DNA of 64,000 bases, taken from assembly GCA_025359135.1 (NCBI GenBank), contig JANYHJ010000168.1:1-64000 (forward strand), read 5' to 3'. Source of the stretch: Gemmatimonadota bacterium (GTDB lineage Bacteria; Gemmatimonadota; Gemmatimonadetes; Gemmatimonadales; Gemmatimonadaceae). Of this stretch, positions 32,322-64,000 are shown in pieces. Made by a program: the position numbers and the translations under genes. The notes beneath the pieces are model-generated. The model did no database searches. It worked only from the letters and a program-made list of their open reading frames with translations, and was not told where the DNA came from. The first letter of the stretch is position 1; the number at the start of each line of letters is the position of its first letter.

Positions 32322-32894
32322 CTACCGCACCGCGTTCCACATCGCGACCGTCTGCGGAAAGAACGCCTTGCCCTCGCGTAGTGTCCACTCGAAGCGGTGA
32401 CGTACCACTTGCCGGAACACGCCGTCGAAGTCGAGCACGACGTGCTGTGCGAGGAAGCTCCGGTCTGCCACGGCGAACGGGCGACCAGGCTCGAGATAGT
32501 CGGCCATGTAGAGCGCCCTGCCCGTTCGCCCCCACGTGCCGCTGCCGGTCGTGTGCCAGCGGATCGCGTCGAGCACGTCACGGCGCGCCTCGCCGAGCGA
32601 TTCGAGCTTGTTGGCGGCCGCGGGACCGTGCAGCGTGCCGAACGGGCTCTCGGCGTCGCCCGTCGCGGCGCGCAGCGTCGCTTCATCGCAGTCGCGCAGC
32701 GCATCGTGCCAGCGGCCTGCGTCGTACCACGCCTGGGCCTCGGCGGAATCCAGGTGCAACGCCCTCGCCCAGAGATCGAGCAACCGCGTGACGCGCCCGA
32801 TGTGCGCGCGCCGCCGCTCCGACACGACGGCCCACGCGGGAAGCTCCACGGCGGGTGCCGGCGGCGCGGAATCGGGCAACGGCATGCCCGTCAT
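32322..32894 (-). CDS. Divergent YqeK-like HD-domain hydrolase
   Basis: 190 residues. The HD-superfamily pattern of YqeK (bis(5'-nucleosyl)-tetraphosphatase, symmetrical) can be traced: '[20 protein letters not shown]' (first His), '[11 protein letters not shown]' (HD pair), '[11 protein letters not shown]', '[12 protein letters not shown]' and '[14 protein letters not shown]' (final metal Asp). The N-terminal proline-rich 20 residues are extra. The usual partner nadD is absent. It overlaps the sensor gene upstream (ATGA). If it is a real YqeK it would control Ap4A levels; this is an inference from motifs only. Confidence 0.72.
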
Positions 32895-34975
32895 TGCGCC
32901 TCGGTGATACGACGTGCCAGGTCCTCGAGCGTGTGCGCCACTTCGCGCAGCTCCTGCGTCGCGCCCTCCATCTCGCGCATCGCGAGCGCTTGGTTGCGCG
33001 CGCCCTCGGCCACCGACTGTGCGCTGTCCTGGTTGCGGCGCGAGATCTCCGTGATGCGCGCCACGCGGTCGCGGAGTCGCGCGAACTGCTCCTCCTGGTC
33101 GCGCGACGTGACGGCGATGCGCTGCACGCCCTCCGCGCTCGAGCTTGTCGCCTCGAGAATGCCGAGCAGTGCTTCCTGTGCCGAGGCTGCGAGCGTCTCC
33201 ACGTCGCGCACCATCACCTCGCCGCGCTCCATCTGCCGCGCCACGAGGCGCGTCTGCTCGCTGAAGCCGTAAACCAGCTCGCCCACCTCTGCCGCGGTTT
33301 TGGCGCTCGCGGCCGCAAGCTTGCGGACTTCGTCGGCGACGACGGCGAAGCCCATGCCCTGCTCGCCCGCGCGCGCGGCCTCGATCGCCGCGTTGAGCGC
33401 CAGCAGGTTGGTCTGGTCGGCCAGTTCGCGGATGTCGCCGATGAAGTCGGTCACGCGCTGCGTGCTCTTGCTCAGCTCGGTGACGTGGGTCGCGCTCTCC
33501 GAGATGAACCCCTTGGCGCCGACCAACCGCTCGAGCGCGATGCCGATCGTGTCGCGGTGCTCGAGTGCCGACTCGCGGGCGCGCACCGCCGCGCCGGCCG
33601 CGAAGCTCCCCTCGCGCACCACGTGATCCGTGGCGTTCGCCATCTCGCGCGTCACGTCGAGCGCGTGCAGCAGCTGCTCCCCTTCCTCGCCGATGGCCCG
33701 CGTGATGTCAGCGACGGTCCGCGCCACGGATTCGCCGCCGGAGCGCAGTTGCCTCGCGGACTCGGCGAGCGTGCTGATCTGCCGGCCGAGCCGCACCACG
33801 GCGTCGAGCAGCGGTTGGCGCAGGTCGTGGATATGGAGCGTGGTTGCCAGCTGCGTGCTGAAGCGGCGCACGAGGTCCAGCTCCTTGTCGCGGTACATCG
33901 ACGGCTTGACGTGCTCGATCTCGAGCAGCCCCACGTTGCGGTCGCCGAAGCGGAGCGCCGCCATCGCGATCGAGCGCACGTTGGACGGCCGCACGCGCAC
34001 CCGCGGGTCGCGCCGCGCGTCGGATACCGCGATCGGCGTCGCGGACTCGAGGGCGAGTCGCCGCAGTTCGCGCCCCATTTCCGGCTCGGGCTTGGCCACG
34101 GCCACCGTGCGGCCATTCCCCTCGTAGAGCAGCGTCAGCTGTTCGCCGCTGACGCGCCAGATGCGGAGCGCCGTCCAGTCCACGAGCCGGCGCGCGAGCC
34201 CCTCGATGCGCCCGAACGCCTCCTCGAGCGTGGCGTCGGATGCCACCACCAGCTCCATCGCGAGGATCTTGTTCAACTCCTCGGCGGCAATCGACTCCTC
34301 GAGGATGCGCTTGAGCAGCAGTCCGGCGAAGCCCAGCACGAGCGACACCACCAGCGCGCCCACCCATCCCACGGTCTGGATCGTGACGAGCCCGATGGTC
34401 ACCGCGGCCGTGCCTGCACCGAAGGTGATGACCTCGTAGCGCAGGATGAGCGAGCGTTCCTCGGCGTAGAGCTTGTCGCGCGCGATGAGCGTGAAGTACA
34501 GGAGCCCGCGGCTGATCAGGAAGTGCGCGAAACAGAAGAGCGCGAACGCCGGCAGCGTCTCCGTCGAGAGACCGCTGAAGCGCTGCTCGCCCGTCGCGGC
34601 TGCCGTGGCGGCGTAGAACCCGTACGAGGCGTAGAGCGCGATGACTTCGCGTCCCGAGTTGATCACCGACGGACGCAGCGGCTTGCCGAGGATGAGCCGG
34701 TCCGCGATCAGGATGCCGAAGTAAAGCGCGAGCGCCGTGCCGCTCGCGCCGACCACGAGCGAGCCGCCCACCGCGATCATGGAGAGCAGGTTGAGCGCCG
34801 AGTACTTGGTGGTCGGAATCTGGAACGCCCGCAGCGCGCCCGCCGCGAGGAAGATGAGCAGGACGCCGTATCCCGCTTCGAGGCTCCAGTGGCTGGACGT
34901 GGCGAGCGCGGCCAGCAGCAGAAGGAAGCCGCCGACCGTGACCGCACCGGGATACCAGGCGAGCAGTCGGCCCAT
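32891..34975 (-). CDS. Polytopic membrane GAF/methyl-accepting chemotaxis-type sensor
   Basis: 694 residues. The N-terminal 225 residues hold about six to seven membrane helices with short loops, unlike the single periplasmic-sensor layout of ordinary chemoreceptors. A GAF-like domain follows (about 235-385). The C-terminal 300 residues form an MCP coiled-coil hairpin with the conserved tip '[20 protein letters not shown]' and '[13 protein letters not shown]', the region that binds CheW and CheA. There is no HAMP domain and no che gene in the window. It begins three bases after trpA. The role is signal sensing, but the ligand is unknown and output through a remote CheA is only inferred. Confidence 0.85.
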
Positions 34976-34978
34976 GAA

Positions 34979-35779
34979 TCAGCCTTCGTCGAGGGCGGCG
35001 CGCAGGGAACGCACGAGGGCGATGGCCTCGTCGGTGGAACGGCCGGCAGCGGCCACGAGTGCGGACCCGACGACGACGCCGTCGGCGATGCGGCCGATCT
35101 CGCGTGCCTGACCGGGCGTCGAGATGCCGAAGCCGACGCACACCGGCAATGTCGTCGTCGCCTTGAGCCGTGCGACGGTGGCCGGCAGCTCGGCTGGCAC
35201 CGACGCACTCACGCCGGTCACGCCGAGCCGGCTGATGAGGTACACGAAGCCGCTGCCGTGTCGCGCGATCTCAACCATGCGCTCGCTCGGCGTCGTCGGC
35301 GCCACGAGTCGCACGAAGGCCAGCGGACTCGCGCCCACCCACGCTTCGCGCTCCGCATCCGCGCCAACGGGGAGGTCGGTCACGAGGAGGCCGCTGATGC
35401 CGGCCCGTGATGCGCGCTCGAGCACGTCAGGGCCGGCGGCGATGAGCGGATTGAGGTACGTGAAGAGCACGAGCGGCACGTCGACCTTGGCATCGCGCGC
35501 GAGGGCGAGCGTGCCGTCGAGTGTCATGTGGTGGTCGAGCGCGCGCTGCGAACTTGCCTGAATCACCGGCCCATCGGCCAGCGGGTCCGAGAACGGCACG
35601 CCCAGCTCGATCACGTCAGCCCCGGCCGCCGCGACGCCACGCACCAGGGCCAGCGACGTCGCGGGGTCGGGATGCCCGGCGGTCAGGTAGCAGACCAGGG
35701 CGCGGCGGTTCTGGCGTCGGAGCGCGTCGAAGCGCGCGGTCAGGGCATCAGCGGAAATAGTCACCGATGCGGATGCCAT
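34979..35779 (-). CDS. trpA: Tryptophan synthase alpha chain
   Basis: About 266 residues. It cleaves indole-3-glycerol phosphate to indole and glyceraldehyde 3-phosphate. The motif 'AGADVIELGVPFSDPLADGPVIQ' holds the catalytic Glu and Asp. 'PLVLFTYLNPL', 'GLLVTDLPVG' and 'FGISTPGQAREI' complete the barrel. The start is uncertain: ATG at 35779 (weak GGAG four bases upstream) or GTG at 35764. Both lie inside the end of the HD-GYP gene, so translation is coupled to it. It is separated from trpB by two signalling genes, which is unusual because trpB and trpA are normally adjacent. Confidence 0.94.
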   Translation of the reverse strand: MASASVTISADALTARFDALRRQNRRALVCYLTAGHPDPATSLALVRGVAAAGADVIELGVPFSDPLADGPVIQASSQRALDHHMTLDGTLALARDAKVDVPLVLFTYLNPLIAAGPDVLERASRAGISGLLVTDLPVGADAEREAWVGASPLAFVRLVAPTTPSERMVEIARHGSGFVYLISRLGVTGVSASVPAELPATVARLKATTTLPVCVGFGISTPGQAREIGRIADGVVVGSALVAAAGRSTDEAIALVRSLRAALDEG

Positions 35780-37277
35780 AGCGCTCCGGATTCTCCGTCT
35801 TGATGATCGTGCGGGTGAAGTTGTCCTCGAAGTCGCGCTCCCCGAGCGACACTTCGAGTCCGGGGTAGAGCACGTTGCCCTGCGCGTCACTCACGATCAG
35901 CACTGTGGGGCGCGAGGCCATTTCCGGATCCGCGTCGGCCGCCTGCACCACGGCGAGCTCGAAGGTGTCGAGCATGACGAGCGTGCCGACGGGATAAATG
36001 CCGAGCATGGCCACGAACGCCTTGACCAGTGTCGGGTCCATGCCACGTCGCGGGTTGTCGCGCATTTCCTGCAGCACGATCGCCGGCGCCACCGGGTTGG
36101 CGTACGCACGTTGTGTCGTCGCCGCGTCGAAGCCGTCGGCGATCGCCACGATCTTGCTGAAGATCGAGAGGTCGCGCTCACGCAGCGTCCGCGGGTAGCC
36201 CGTCTGGTCGATGCGCATGTGGTGCTCGTACGCCACCACCATCGAGCGGTACGGCATCTCCGTGGTGCTCTTGAACTGCAGCAGGGTGAGCAGGCCGCGC
36301 CAGGTGTGCGTGGTCAGCATCCGCCACTCGTCCTCGGACAGCTTCTCGGTCTTGTTGAGCACCTCGAGCTGGATGCGCGCCTTGCCGATGTCGTGGAAGA
36401 GCGCGGCCATGCCGAGGTCGTAGAGCTGCAGCTTGTCGAGCAGCAGGCGCCGACCGAGCGCCACGGAGAAGATGCAGACGTTGAGCGAGTGCACGAAGGT
36501 GTACTCGTCGTAATCGCGGATGGTGGTCAGCCCCACGAGCGACGTTTCGTCGGCGAGGATCTGATCGACGATCGTCTGGACGACGCGCTTGACCCGCTTG
36601 AGTCCGCCCGACCGGCCCATGCGCACCGAGTTCACGACGTCCTTCGTGACCGCGATGCCCTGCGCGTAGACCCGCTTGGCCGCTTCCTTGGCCTGCGCCT
36701 TGGTCTGCCGCTCCTCTCCCGTTTCGGATGGCGGACCGACGGCGAAGCTGCGCACCCCGGCGTCGGCGAGACGCTGCAGCATCCACTCGAGCCGCTCCTC
36801 GGCCTCCTTCGGTCCCTGCATGTCCTGCTGCAGGGTCGAGAGCAGCACGATGTAGTCGCGCGGCAGTGGCGGCGACTCGACCTGCATCTCGCCGATGCCG
36901 TTGGCACGCAGTTTATCGTTGACGCTCTTGAAGGCGGCAAAGTTGTCGGCTTCGAGCCGCAGCTGCGCGCCGTTCATGAAGAGCGCGTCGCCCGAGAGGC
37001 GCAGGTCGATCTCCTGCGAGTGGCGCAGGATTTCCGACGTCACGTTGACGAGGTCGAGCACCGCCTTCTGCACCGCGGCGTTTTCCACCGGATAGAGCTT
37101 GACGGCGCGCATCGCACCGAAGAATGCGAGCACGTAGAGACGACCGAGTCGCTTGAGGTCGCTGCCCTCGCCTGCCTCGGTGATGGCCGAGAGCAGCTGC
37201 GACGTGCGCGGGCCGCCCGGTTGTTCCACGGCGCGGAAGTTGCCCGAGGGCCGCGGAGGCGTGTTGGAGCCGCTCAT
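35748..37277 (-). CDS. HD-GYP domain protein with novel N-terminal module
   Basis: 509 residues. The C-terminal HD-GYP domain, the type that hydrolyses cyclic di-GMP, has 'DEYTFVHSLNV', the HD pair in 'ALFHDIGKARI' (His295-Asp296), 'HTWRG' and 'EHHMRIDQTGYP' (GYP at 360-362). The last block deviates from the usual HHExxDGxGYP. The N-terminal 45-155 region is a module also seen in the adjacent HEAT protein: an 'AVKLYP' start, then 'EIDLRLSGDALFMNG', a Phe-Lys segment and 'DYIVLLSTL'. The ATG overlaps the HEAT gene stop (ATGA), and its end overlaps trpA. Activity against cyclic di-GMP is likely but unproven. Confidence 0.88.
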   Translation of the reverse strand: MSGSNTPPRPSGNFRAVEQPGGPRTSQLLSAITEAGEGSDLKRLGRLYVLAFFGAMRAVKLYPVENAAVQKAVLDLVNVTSEILRHSQEIDLRLSGDALFMNGAQLRLEADNFAAFKSVNDKLRANGIGEMQVESPPLPRDYIVLLSTLQQDMQGPKEAEERLEWMLQRLADAGVRSFAVGPPSETGEERQTKAQAKEAAKRVYAQGIAVTKDVVNSVRMGRSGGLKRVKRVVQTIVDQILADETSLVGLTTIRDYDEYTFVHSLNVCIFSVALGRRLLLDKLQLYDLGMAALFHDIGKARIQLEVLNKTEKLSEDEWRMLTTHTWRGLLTLLQFKSTTEMPYRSMVVAYEHHMRIDQTGYPRTLRERDLSIFSKIVAIADGFDAATTQRAYANPVAPAIVLQEMRDNPRRGMDPTLVKAFVAMLGIYPVGTLVMLDTFELAVVQAADADPEMASRPTVLIVSDAQGNVLYPGLEVSLGERDFEDNFTRTIIKTENPERYGIRIGDYFR

Positions 37278-39034
37278 CTCGGCTGGTCTCCGCGAAGCGC
37301 ACGATTGACCGCCGTGCGCACGACGACGTCCTTGTCATCGACCGCCTTGCGCAGCGACTCCTGCGCCTTGCTGGTCGCCGCGCGCCCGAGTCCTGCCGCG
37401 GCACAGACGCGAACCTCCGCGTCCTCGCGCCGGCCGAGGAATCCCTTGCTGTTGAGCAGGCCGTCGAGGAGCGTCACCGCCTGGTCGCCGCCCGTGGCGC
37501 CATACGCCTCGAAGACGGCCATCATCTCCGTCTTGTCGCGCTCGCGCAGCTCCTTGCCCTTCACGATACCGTCGAGCCGTGCAAACGACGCCCGGTACTT
37601 CGCCGCGGTGACCGCCCGCGCGGCGCTCAAGCGCACATCGCGATCGCCGTCGGCCAGCGCCCGCTCCAGCAGCTGCATGGCGCCGGCCGAGCCGATTTCG
37701 GCGAGCGCCGTCACGCACGCGCCGCGCACTTCGGCGTCGCCGTCGGAGAGCAGCTTGCCCATCGGCGCCACCGAGGCTGCGGTCTTCAGTGCACCAGAGC
37801 GCCGGATCGCCTCGAGGGCCACGATCCGGTCGCTGCTCGCGATGAGTTTCACGAGCTCGATCGTGTTCGAGCGCGCGATCCGATCGGCCGCCGTCTCGAG
37901 CATCGCCTTGAGCGGGGCCTGCTCGAGCTTGTGCAGCCACGCGAGCACGGTGCCGAGCGCGGTGACGCGCAACTGGTCGAAGAGTGCGAGCAGCTCGTCC
38001 TGTGACGGGAGTTGCGTCGCCAGGTCGAGTCCCTGCAGCACCTGCGCGAGTGCTGCGGGCTCGCTCAGCCGATCAGGCAGCCGCATCAGGCGATCCTTGT
38101 GCGCCTGCTGCAGGTCGGGCGCGCGGCCGCCGGCGAGGGCCGATTCGCGCAGCAGGTAGGCCACCGTCTTGAGATCGCCTGCGGAGAGCAGCGTGAGGAC
38201 GAACTGCTCGAGGAGTTCGCACGTTTCGTCGCGCACCTCGGGCTCCGTCTGCAGCTCGAAGGTGTCGAGCAGCATCGTGATCACCGTTAGCCGATGATCG
38301 CGCGAGTACTCCTGCGCGAAGGCGCGCCTCAGCGACTCGAGTTCGGTTTCGTCGAGGAAATAGAGCGAGCTGTCGAAATCGGCGAGATTGACCACGCCGC
38401 TCTTCCGCTGCTCCTCGGCGTCTCCGCTTCCCTCGCCAGCCTGCGCGGCGTCGCCCTCTCCAGTGAGCACCGCCTGGGCGCGCCCAGAACGGCCCTCGAG
38501 GTCGTCGCTCCAGCGGGCGGGCGGTCCCATCTGGTCGTCGAAGGCCGGACCGTCACCGCCGATCTCGACGTAGCGGTACTTGAGATACCCGAACGCAGAC
38601 TCCCAGAGCAGGGTCAGGAGGTCATCATCATCGACACCACCACGACGGACGCGTGGCAGCAGCTCGATGACCTTGATCCACTCCTCGACCTCGACGCCGC
38701 GCGCCAGCGAGAGCGCGCGCACGCCGTCCTTGTAGAAGAGCCACGCCAGCGAGTCGCTGCCCTTGCCCTCCTCGGCGTACACCACGTTCGGACCGTAGCG
38801 AATGTCCGTCTCGCCGATCGTGAGCGTGACCTCGTCCTCGTGCGCCCAGACGCCCTTGAACGACCCCTGCACGACTTCGGCCGCCCGCAACCACGTGGGA
38901 TTGTTGCCCGGGTACAGTTGGCGCGCCTTGAGCGCCTTCGCCGTGTTGCGCAGCAATTCCTCGAGGGCGGCGGGCGGAACTTGTCCGTCGAAGTCCTCAT
39001 CGACCACCGGAATCGGCCGCGATGGCGTGCTCAC
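37274..39034 (-). CDS. HEAT-repeat protein with shared N-terminal module
   Basis: 586 residues from a GTG overlapping the trpB stop (GTGA). Residues 25-125 form the module shared with the HD-GYP protein ('[12 protein letters not shown]', 'DEVTLTIG', '[21 protein letters not shown]'). A low-complexity linker rich in Gly, Glu and Asp follows (about 165-200). The rest is helical repeats: '[27 protein letters not shown]', '[23 protein letters not shown]', '[27 protein letters not shown]' and '[13 protein letters not shown]', typical HEAT/PBS-lyase-type scaffolds. It probably binds proteins. Its fixed place between trpB and HD-GYP suggests a partner role with HD-GYP; this is inference. Confidence 0.85.
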
Positions 39035-40239
39035 GGCGTGAACCCCTCCAGGGTGCTGATCTGCGCGACGTCCTTGTCGCCGCGGCCACTCACGCAGAGG
39101 AGCACGGGCTCGTCGCTCTTCCAACGGCCCTTCGCGCTCGCCATCCAGGCAATCGCGTGCGCCGTCTCGAGCGCAGGAATGATGCCCTCGAGCCGCGAAA
39201 GGATGCGCACCCCCTCGAGCGCGTCGCGGTCGTCGACCGCCACGTACTCGGCCCGGCCGCGCGTCTTGAGCCACGCATGTTCGGGCCCGACACCGGGGTA
39301 GTCGAGACCAGCCGACACCGAGTGCGCCGGATGCACCTGACCCGCGGCATCCTGCAGCAGCATCGAGAGCGCGCCATGCAGCACGCCGGGGGTGCCGACG
39401 GAGAGCGTGGCACTGTGACGGCCGGTGCTGATCCCCTCGCCCGCGGCTTCGACGCCGATGAGCTCGACGTCGGCGTCCTGCACGAACGGATGGAAGATGC
39501 CCATCGCGTTCGAGCCGCCACCCACGCAGGCGACGACGGCGCGCGGCAACCGACCCGTGAGCGCGAGCACTTGCGCGCGCGCCTCGTCGCCGATGATGCG
39601 CTGGAAGTCGCGCACCATGCGTGGGTACGGTGCGGGACCCACCACCGAGCCGATGATGTAGTGCGTGGCGCCGACGTTGGTCACCCAGTCGCGGATCGCC
39701 TCGGTGGTCGCGTCCTTGAGGGTGCGCGTGCCACTCGTGACCGGCACGACCGTGGCGCCGAGCAACTTCATGCGGAAGACGTTGAGCGCCTGGCGGCGCA
39801 TGTCCTCCTCACCCATGTACACCACGCACTCAAGGCCGAAGCGGGCGCAGATCGTGGCCGTGGCCACTCCGTGCTGGCCGGCGCCCGTCTCGGCGATGAT
39901 GCGCGTCTTGCCCATGCGGCGCGCGAGCAGCGCCTGTCCGATCGTGTTGTTGATCTTGTGCGCACCCGTGTGGTTCAGGTCCTCGCGCTTGAGCAGCACG
40001 CGCGCGCCGACCAGCATGGAGAAACGCGGCGCTTCGGTGAGCGCGCTGGGTCGCCCGACGAAATCGCGCAGGAGGCCGTCGAGGTCCGCACGAAAGGCGC
40101 GATCCCGCATGGCCGACGCGTACGCCTCTTCCAGTTCATCGAGCGCCGGAATCAGCGTCTCGGGGACGTACCGTCCGCCGAACGGACCGAAACGTCCGGC
40201 GTCGGTGTCCGGCGGCGACTCTGGAAGGACGGCGGTCAT
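39031..40239 (-). CDS. trpB: Tryptophan synthase beta chain
   Basis: 402 residues. A PLP enzyme condensing indole with serine. Starts '[19 protein letters not shown]'. PLP lysine is Lys95 in '[17 protein letters not shown]'. '[14 protein letters not shown]' gives the catalytic glutamate region and '[12 protein letters not shown]' the phosphate-binding loop. The sequence is of the common TrpB1 type that works with TrpA. It overlaps trpF (ATGA) and the HEAT gene (GTGA). Confidence 0.97.
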
Positions 40240-40892
40240 TCGCGAGAGAACGGGCTGGAGGTGGCGACGGCGCGGACGAACGCCCGCATGCGATCGGGCG
40301 ACTTGATGCCGGGCGCATCTTCAACTCCAGACGAGACATCCACCACGTCGGGAGCAAGGGTGCGCACCGCATCGGAAATATTGTCGGAAGTCAGGCCGCC
40401 AGCCAGCACGAGTCGGCCTTTTCCTCGGGCAGCGCTCAGGGTGCTGGCGTGCTCGTTCCAGTCGAACCGCTGGCCGGAGCCGCCGAGTCCGCTGGCCACG
40501 AGGTGGTCGACGAGCACGGCATCCGCGGCCGCAAAGAGATCGGCGAGATCGCCGCGCGTCGGGTTTGCCCCGAGGCGCACCACCGCCCAGATGTCGCCGT
40601 TCCATGCGCCGCGCAGCGCCCGGATCTGTTCAAGGGTCGGGTCCGCGTGGACCTGGAGGATATCGGCCCCGGCGTCCCGTCCCTGGTTCGCCATGAGGTC
40701 GGGCGTGGTCAGCTTCACCACCGCAACCCGTCGCGGGCCGACGGCCGCGGCGAGCACGTCGCGGGCTGCCGCGGGGGTCAGCACGCGTGACCCGCCGACG
40801 AGTATGGCACCAACGAACGACGCGCCCAGCGACGCTGCGAGCGCAGCATCGTCCGGGCGCGTCAGCCCACAGAACTTGATCTCAGCCGGCAC
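40236..40892 (-). CDS. trpF: Phosphoribosylanthranilate isomerase
   Basis: 218 residues from a GTG that lies within the end of trpC (11-base overlap). It carries out the Amadori rearrangement of PRA to CdRP. The catalytic cysteine is in '[12 protein letters not shown]' (Cys8). 'ILQVHADP', '[19 protein letters not shown]' and the phosphate-binding '[14 protein letters not shown]' plus '[18 protein letters not shown]' are standard TrpF blocks. Confidence 0.96.
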
Positions 40893-41712
40893 GACCGCGG
40901 CGGGTCACTCCGGTCAGGGTTCGCACGGCGGCCGCAGGTTCGGTCGACGACGAGATGCTCGAGCCCACGAGGACGGCGTCGGCGCCGTGCGAGGCCGCCA
41001 GCTCCACCTGTGAGCGTTCGGCGATTCCGCTCTCGTGGATGGCGATGCGGTCCGCGGGGATGTGCGGCAGAATCCTCTCGGCCGTGGTGTGGTTGACGAC
41101 GAGCGTCTCGAGGTTGCGATTGTTGACGCCGATCATCGGGGCCGCCGCGACCGCGAGTGCCACGGCGCGGGCGAGTTCGTCTTCGTCGCGCACCTCGACG
41201 AGCACCTCCAGCCCCAACTGATGGGCCTCGCCGGCCAGGTCCTCGAGGCGCGAGGGCTCGAGCGCACGCGCGATCAGGAGCAGCGCGCTCGCGCCGATTG
41301 CGCGGGCCTCGAGCACCTGGATCGAATCGACGTGGAAGTCCTTCTTGAGGAGCGGCAGCTCGACGCGGCGACGGATATCCACGAGGTCCTGCACGCCGCC
41401 CTTGAAGTGCTCGGGCTCGGTGAGGACCGACAGACAGGCCGCGCCGCCGTCGGCGAATGCGCCGGCGAGTGCCACGGCGCTCACCCCGGGGTTGATCGGT
41501 CCCTTCGAGGGCGAGGCTCGCTTGACCTCGGCGATCACGGCCACGTCCTCCCTGAGCAGAGCCGTCGCGAACGGACGCGCGGCCGGGGTATCGGCGGCCA
41601 ACGCCATGAGGTCCGCGCGGCGGCGCTCGAGGAGCACGGCCCGCTGCCGGGCCTCGTCCATCAGCTTTCCGAGGGTCCCCGTCGGGGGACGCCATTGCTT
41701 CGATGCTTGCAC
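40882..41712 (-). CDS. trpC: Indole-3-glycerol-phosphate synthase
   Basis: About 276 residues. It converts CdRP to indole-3-glycerol phosphate. Motifs are 'VIAEVKRASPSKGPI', 'LSVLTEPEHFKGG', 'LLKKDFHVDSIQVLEARAIGASALLLIARAL', 'VNNRNLETLVVNHTTAERIL' and 'IHESGIAERSQV'. Two GTG starts are open, 41766 and 41712. I choose 41712 because the protein then begins just before the conserved 'GTLGKLMDEAR' helix. Neither has a clear ribosome-binding site. First gene of the trp run, divergent from lexA. trpE and trpG are not in the window. Confidence 0.95.
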   Translation of the reverse strand: MQASKQWRPPTGTLGKLMDEARQRAVLLERRRADLMALAADTPAARPFATALLREDVAVIAEVKRASPSKGPINPGVSAVALAGAFADGGAACLSVLTEPEHFKGGVQDLVDIRRRVELPLLKKDFHVDSIQVLEARAIGASALLLIARALEPSRLEDLAGEAHQLGLEVLVEVRDEDELARAVALAVAAAPMIGVNNRNLETLVVNHTTAERILPHIPADRIAIHESGIAERSQVELAASHGADAVLVGSSISSSTEPAAAVRTLTGVTRRGRAG

Positions 41713-41748
41713 TTCGGGATTCGTTCGGCTAACGTGTGGTGAGATTCG

Positions 41749-41785
41749 GGAAACGTTCGGGAGCACCGAATCGTCTTGGAAACGT
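41749..41785. promoter_or_regulatory. Candidate LexA operator region (direct repeat)
   Basis: GGAAACGT occurs at 41749-41756 and again at 41778-41785. The surrounding 100 bases, between divergent trpC and lexA, also repeat CGTTCGG and ATTCGG. LexA usually regulates its own gene, so these are operator candidates. They match no consensus that I can cite with confidence. Confidence 0.3.
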
Positions 41786-63007: not shown

Positions 63008-64000
63008 TCAAGTGGTTGAGCCGCTTTCGCTTGCGTCGTGGGCGTTGACGCGGTTTCTCCCCTGCTGCTTGGACCGGTACAGCGCCTTGTCGGCCAGCGA
63101 GAAGAGTTCCGCCCGCGGAATCGGCACCGCGCCGCCGTAGGTCGCCACGCCGAGCGAGCACGTGACGGGTATCGCGTGCGACTTGGCTTGCACCGGCCGC
63201 GTCTCGATCGCCTTCCGCATTCGCTCGGCGAATTCCTTCGCGCCAGCGAGGTCGGTTTGCGGTAGCAGGCAGGCGATCTCCTCGCCGCCGTAGCGCGTCA
63301 CGATGTCCACGGTGCGCACGCCGTCCTTGAACGCCTTGGCCACGTACTGCAGCACCGAGTCGCCGACGTCGTGGCCGTACGTATCGTTGACCTTCTTGAA
63401 GTGGTCGAGGTCCGCCACCACCAGCGACACCGGTCCGCCGTAACGATCACACTCGTCGAGCAGTCGTTCGATCTGCTCCTCGAAGTAGCGACGGTTCGAG
63501 AGGCCCGTGAGGACGTCGGTGCGTGCCCGTCGCTCGATCTCTTCGTATTCGAACTGCGACTCGAGCGAGACCGCCGCAATGGCGCCGAGGAGCCGCAGGG
63601 CGCGCACCGACTCGCCGCGCACGCGGTTGATGTCGTCGCCCTCGACCACGATGGCGCCAACCACGCCCTCGGGCCGCACGAGCGGCACGACGCCGAGTGA
63701 GCTGACCGAGCGGCGCGGCTCGGCGCGACCGTAGACAACCGCCAGGCGCGACAGTTCGCGGGCGTCTTCCCACGTGAGCGGCGTCGCTTCGCGGCAGCTG
63801 CCACCAACCGCGGAATCATCGGTGACGACGAGTCCGACTCGCACCGGCGCCGTGGGGCTCGTTGCCTGCACTTCGCCCTTCCGCGAATCCGCATTCCAGC
63901 GGACGAGTGCCGCGTGCGCCGCGCCGGTCACGTCGAGCGCACTCTGGCAGATCTCCGCGCCCAGCGTCTCGATCGACCGGCTCTTCTGGAAGTCCGTGGC
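63008..64000 (-). CDS. GAF-GGDEF diguanylate cyclase (partial, 5' end outside window)
   Basis: At least 330 residues; the frame stays open to the window edge with GAF-like sequence ('IETLGAEICQSALDVTGAAHAALVRW'), so the start lies beyond. The GAF domain ends in 'LRLLGAIAAVSLESQ'. The GGDEF domain starts 'RRARTDVLTGLSNRRYFEEQI', has the metal aspartate in 'LVVADLDHFKKVNDTYGHDVGD' and the active-site 'RYGGEEIACLLP' (GGEEI variant of GGDEF). An RxxD inhibitory site (RTVD) lies five residues before it. An active, feedback-inhibited cyclic di-GMP synthase is likely. Confidence 0.93.
   Translation of the reverse strand, partial: ATDFQKSRSIETLGAEICQSALDVTGAAHAALVRWNADSRKGEVQATSPTAPVRVGLVVTDDSAVGGSCREATPLTWEDARELSRLAVVYGRAEPRRSVSSLGVVPLVRPEGVVGAIVVEGDDINRVRGESVRALRLLGAIAAVSLESQFEYEEIERRARTDVLTGLSNRRYFEEQIERLLDECDRYGGPVSLVVADLDHFKKVNDTYGHDVGDSVLQYVAKAFKDGVRTVDIVTRYGGEEIACLLPQTDLAGAKEFAERMRKAIETRPVQAKSHAIPVTCSLGVATYGGAVPIPRAELFSLADKALYRSKQQGRNRVNAHDASESGSTT

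Follow-up and report, generated by a model that had tools for sequence, protein, structure and literature searches.

A shared N-terminal module in adjacent HEAT-repeat and HD-GYP proteins encoded within the tryptophan operon of Gemmatimonadota

Introduction

In a conserved trp operon of Gemmatimonadota, genes for a HEAT-repeat protein and an HD-GYP protein stand side by side among the genes of tryptophan synthesis, which raises the question of what couples the two proteins and which pathway they serve. As a rule, an HD-GYP phosphodiesterase is controlled by a known sensor domain in its own chain. An earlier note on this DNA (a stretch of 64,000 nucleotides, here called the window) had read a common plan in the N-termini of both proteins, knew no named domain for it, and suggested that the products of the two coupled genes either assemble through this module or sense the same signal.

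Results

The window derives from a Gemmatimonadota genome and contains, on the minus strand at 34979–41766, an overlapping row of genes in the order trpC-trpF-trpB-HEAT-HDGYP-trpA-(GAF-MCP), with the HEAT and HD-GYP genes inserted between trpB and trpA. From the open reading frames and the sequence of the window, the gene for the HEAT-repeat protein (586 aa; HEAT_2, E 3.5e-16) was placed at 37274–39034 (−) and that for the HD-GYP protein (509 aa; HD_5, E 6.5e-19), a predicted c-di-GMP phosphodiesterase, at 35748–37277 (−), as the earlier note had them. These genes overlap by 4 nt, the HEAT stop codon lying over the HD-GYP ATG. Directly upstream in the same operon, the stop codon of trpB (39031–40239, −) overlaps the GTG start of the HEAT gene, and directly downstream the start of trpA (34979–35770, −; start codon approximate; Trp_syntA, E 7.9e-80) precedes the end of the HD-GYP gene. 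trpB is kept as a neighbour in 63 of 78 loci and trpA in 62, and the arrangement trpB-HEAT-HDGYP-trpA extends over much of the class (62/78 loci). A protein with GAF and MCP-signalling domains (32891–34975, −) is encoded downstream of trpA here and in 29 of the 78 loci, and a GGDEF protein lies at the end of the window (63008–63931, −; GGDEF match G000:C132:63050-63526).

The common plan of the two N-termini was confirmed, with about 115 residues found to be homologous by profile–profile comparison, HMM searches and AlphaFold2. Profiles were made from orthologues gathered within Gemmatimonadota and then aligned. The profile comparison called for by the earlier note gave a significant score, with hhalign matching HD-GYP residues 40–180 to HEAT residues 18–165, N-terminus on N-terminus, over 117 columns at a probability of 96.0% (E 3.8e-9); 60 column-shuffled, reversed and other-segment controls reached a probability of at most 2.6%. 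A second alignment set taken from named genomes by a contig scan, with records that were essentially all Gemmatimonadota, returned 95.6% (E 1.1e-8). When all six frames of the complete genome were searched at E<=10 with an HMM of the HEAT N-terminus, two places only were matched, namely HEAT itself and the N-terminus of the HD-GYP protein (E 3.1e-4). In the other direction, at least 39 of 80 named loci gave a match of the HD-GYP N-terminal HMM to the N-terminus of HEAT (best E 4.8e-9). An HMM built solely from carriers outside the trp operon recovered both trp-type N-termini in most carrier genomes, with best E-values of 2.1e-15 for HEAT and 3.7e-10 for HD-GYP.

Structure prediction, the other check proposed in the earlier note, gave two confident models whose elements follow one order. 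AlphaFold2 models were calculated from input alignments of 64 rows for HD-GYP residues 40–184 (36726–37160, −; core approximately 40–150; pLDDT 95.6, pTM 0.89) and for HEAT residues 18–170 (38525–38983, −; core approximately 25–125; pLDDT 91.5, pTM 0.85). The elements of the HD-GYP model are H2-22, H28-48, E51-56, E59-62, H71-86, E91-94, H100-111, H120-133 and E139-142, and those of the HEAT model are H4-23, H29-46, E51-56, E60-63, E66-70, H79-84, E88-94, H101-114, H122-129 and E134-138. Both follow the order H-H-b-b-(b)-H-b-H-H-b, and their three-state structure is identical at 95 of 119 residues (80%) when placed on the hhalign alignment. The module is built from two long helices joined by the LYPxxN/H loop, a small sheet and further helices. 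That the HEAT and HD-GYP N-termini are homologous and share the same predicted fold is thus shown by computation. An alternative to common descent is that short helical proteins with a biased composition have converged. This could explain an identity between the two modules of only 13–15% and a direct BLASTP search of the HEAT against the HD-GYP protein that returned no match, but it is very improbable given profile scores far above the controls, HMM matches to the E-values above and the common predicted topology.

Among the motifs from which the plan had first been read, three correspond between the two proteins: the LYPxxN loop, the strand IDLRL / VTLTI and the final helix. The strand, read as EIDLRL / DEVTLTIG, is E51-56 in both models. 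The proposed xxRA turn did not hold: NGIG of the HD-GYP protein aligns with DGVR of the HEAT protein, so the RA-on-RA likeness is due to chance and lies a few residues out of register. The LYPxxN/H loop is the best-conserved part of the module, and conserved residues are otherwise few.

The statement that no named domain covers this module holds for Pfam, NCBIfam, PDB sequences, PDB folds and viral folds. In the two proteins Pfam recognised only the HD domain and the HEAT repeats and left both N-termini blank, and among module members no Pfam or NCBIfam family recurred in more than two. Foldseek found no match at E<=0.001 in the PDB for either module model, nor in BFVD (viral) for that of HD-GYP. 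No Pfam GAF match was obtained for the module, and GAF entries appeared in Foldseek at E>=0.49 only, with a TM of ~0.2. Matches to PDB sequences from alignments A1, A2 and A6 (E up to 10) were judged to be chance, since either no stretch passed alone or only fragments were covered; the same judgement was made of 9l08, a cytochrome trimer construct matched along 34 residues at E 4e-4. A plasmid search with the module alone gave no match, and one with the whole HD-GYP protein matched chiefly the catalytic domain. We discounted a match in another class (G001:C60) as a false positive, since it has no LYP loop and gave nothing with profile A6. In the open literature, no paper was found that links HD-GYP with HEAT repeats in the sense of a pairing, or that deals with the trp operon or HD-GYP proteins of Gemmatimonadota.

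Downstream of the module, the HD-GYP protein carries an HD_5 catalytic domain (36027–36497, −) identified by its Pfam match and conserved residues. The metal ligands H263, H295, D296, H324, H352 and H353 are present in 100% of the aligned set and D381 in 94%, and the GYP motif (G360, Y361, P362) is invariant there. PmGH from Persephonella marina is a GAF-HD-GYP c-di-GMP phosphodiesterase of known active structure (PMC4159591). Like PmGH, the window protein has an N-terminal alpha/beta domain followed by the catalytic HD-GYP domain; the seven ligands above match 7 of the 8 in PmGH, and D257, K299 and D384 match its D183, K225 and D308. By this comparison the catalytic site is intact, and c-di-GMP would be its substrate. 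Unlike PmGH, the window protein has an N-terminal domain that is not GAF by Pfam and fold search, and it has an obligate HEAT partner gene. PmGH E185 is replaced by Y259, which places the protein in the Y/F subfamily, predicted to bind two metals. The full HHExxDGxGYP signature was not found at residues 352–362 (36192–36224, −), where the trp type reads HHM(K/R)xDxxGYP and the second pair type described below mostly HHIMxNGGGYP. The HHE glutamate is therefore lost in both types, to Met in the trp type and mostly to Ile in the second type, so activity should not be assumed. The protein shares the HD-GYP output domain with REC-HD-GYP response regulators (RpfG, NosR family), and its best NCBIfam match is the NosR model, far below the cut-off; unlike those regulators it lacks a receiver domain and carries the module in its place. 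In the HEAT protein, repeats from approximately residue 394 (37277–37855, −) exceed the Pfam cut-offs (HEAT_2, 59.7 bits versus 27.7; HEAT, 34.4 versus 23.5). Such C-terminal repeats are shared with bacterial HEAT_2 proteins (NblB / CpcE-like models), which match through the repeats alone, below the curated NCBIfam cut-offs, and have no N-terminal module.

The coupling of the two genes proposed in the earlier note is strongly supported by adjacency, co-occurrence, a second module-bearing pair and co-variation of the modules. HEAT followed by HD-GYP, adjacent and on one strand, was found in 78 of 78 loci, with the pair between trpB and trpA in 62 and outside trp in 15. With orthologue cut-offs of E<=1e-80 for HD-GYP and E<=1e-25 for HEAT, both genes occur together in 80 genomes and HEAT alone in one (G117, at a contig end); no HD-GYP orthologue without HEAT was present among the genomes listed. 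Mirror-tree partial correlations were calculated from distance matrices of 59 trp loci and corrected for trpB and trpC. The N-termini of the two proteins co-vary with a partial r of 0.52 (bootstrap 0.42-0.58) and their C-termini with 0.68; the value for the HEAT N-terminus and its own C-terminus is 0.28, and that for the N-modules and trpA is ~0 or below. The trp-type N-modules thus co-vary as much as domains within one protein. Because trpA and trpB flank the pair, this co-variation does not result from simple linkage. It could stem in part from joint replacement of the two genes, and co-variation can arise without contact, through shared history or shared selection.

These data support the interpretation in the earlier note in part. 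In PmGH, the dimer contact involves only the GAF domain at the N-terminus, together with its helix (PMC4159591), and by this analogy assembly of the two proteins is the most likely use of the module. In the main alternative, both proteins may have inherited a sensor of a ligand or signal and respond in parallel to the same cue with no contact through the module. Such a sensor would occupy the site at which GAF or REC sensor domains are found in other HD-GYP proteins (PMC4159591), and it would fit the concentration of conservation in the LYPxxN/H loop; however, neither a ligand site nor a Foldseek match to a known sensor fold speaks for it, the conserved residues are few, and contact accounts better for the strict pairing and the co-variation. 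Parallel sensing is accordingly rated as rather unlikely.

The earlier note had also called for a profile search for other proteins with the module, and this uncovered more carriers among 61 Gemmatimonadota genomes. With an HMM from the non-trp carriers, the module was detected in 41 of the 61, and further carriers mostly come in twos, approximately 2 kb apart. These form a second, diverged pair type, present in many genomes, in which a HEAT-like protein of ~700 aa is followed by an HD-GYP protein of ~400 aa, both with the N-terminal module. The repeats of the ~700 aa proteins are weak by Pfam, and those at L250 and L261 matched no family. The genome from which the window derives has such a second pair on another contig (C59, locus L271), with modules at 2.7e-50 and 4e-50, and four other HD-GYP genes, none with the module. 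Comparison of the module classes gave a probability of 94-98% in nine of ten cases, the exception being HD-B versus solo (31%). In a tree of HD domains, obtained by a quick search with a small outgroup with long branches, both pair types group together against few other HD-GYP domains with 97% SH-aLRT. The grouping of all HEAT modules together gave p 0.41 in an AU test, and the deep order of the module classes is not fixed by the tree, so duplication of the whole cassette in one step is our inference rather than a reading of the tree.

Several loci depart from the simple pair. In genome G033, two HEAT/HD-GYP pairs stand in tandem, with four modules in a row (L248, 3645-9896). At L251, L252 and L253, lone proteins consist of the module, a Pro-rich linker and HEAT repeats, with no HD-GYP neighbour detected; a partner is thus not indispensable for the module. 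A record titled Gammaproteobacteria bacterium Ww582 (L206) contains a typical Gemmatimonadota HEAT/HD-GYP locus and is probably mislabelled.

The position of 62 of 78 pairs between trpB and trpA, and the overlap of the genes in the window, would suit a pair that serves tryptophan synthesis as a scaffold or regulator of TrpA/TrpB, with the module incidental. However, genomes that lack the pair keep trpB in 16 of 16 cases and trpA in 15 of 16, so the pair is dispensable for tryptophan synthesis. In pair-less genomes outside family f7 with both genes on one contig, trpB and trpA are mostly 35-251 nt apart. A role in tryptophan synthesis is further opposed by the location outside trp of the second pair type and of 15 among the 78 pairs, by the lack of co-variation between the N-modules and trpA, and by the association of the module with GGDEF cyclases, and it is considered improbable. 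These cyclases are present in all 41 module genomes and absent from 11 of 20 module-less genomes (Fisher p 4e-7, uncorrected for kinship), the 11 belonging to families f5 and f7 only, both of which also have pair-bearing members. A GGDEF gene adjoins a non-trp pair at L103 (3121-4257), L135 (7830-8981) and L263 (2554-3504).

Discussion

Retention of the genes as pairs in genomes of this phylum indicates that the module probably couples the HEAT and HD-GYP proteins. The explanation towards which we lean, as somewhat better than an even prospect, is an obligate two-protein c-di-GMP phosphodiesterase unit held together by the shared module, with an enzyme that the HEAT solenoid would regulate or position. 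Within this unit, the HEAT and HD-GYP proteins would together degrade c-di-GMP. The module stands where other HD-GYP proteins have GAF or REC, and module-to-module contact, by analogy with PmGH, may join the HD-GYP to the HEAT protein. The HEAT solenoid would then gate or place the phosphodiesterase, control presumably running from the HEAT protein to the enzyme. A wider proposal, which we regard as plausible but hold more tentatively, is that HEAT/HD-GYP pairing is the specific task of the module, a novel domain with perhaps a novel fold, and that the cassette is a two-protein c-di-GMP switch inherited from an early stage of the class and duplicated whole.

What is new is the N-terminal module, undescribed and paired, together with the HEAT partner, on an otherwise known type of HD-GYP phosphodiesterase. 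The two foreign genes in a conserved trp operon would be explained as a passenger c-di-GMP cassette. A testable rule follows, namely that a module-bearing HD-GYP protein should have an adjacent partner with the same module. For a phylum that has been little studied, this also suggests what many of the entries named 'HEAT repeat' or 'HD domain' may do. In much of the class, two or more HD-GYP proteins seem to be controlled via a second protein with a homologous N-terminal domain.
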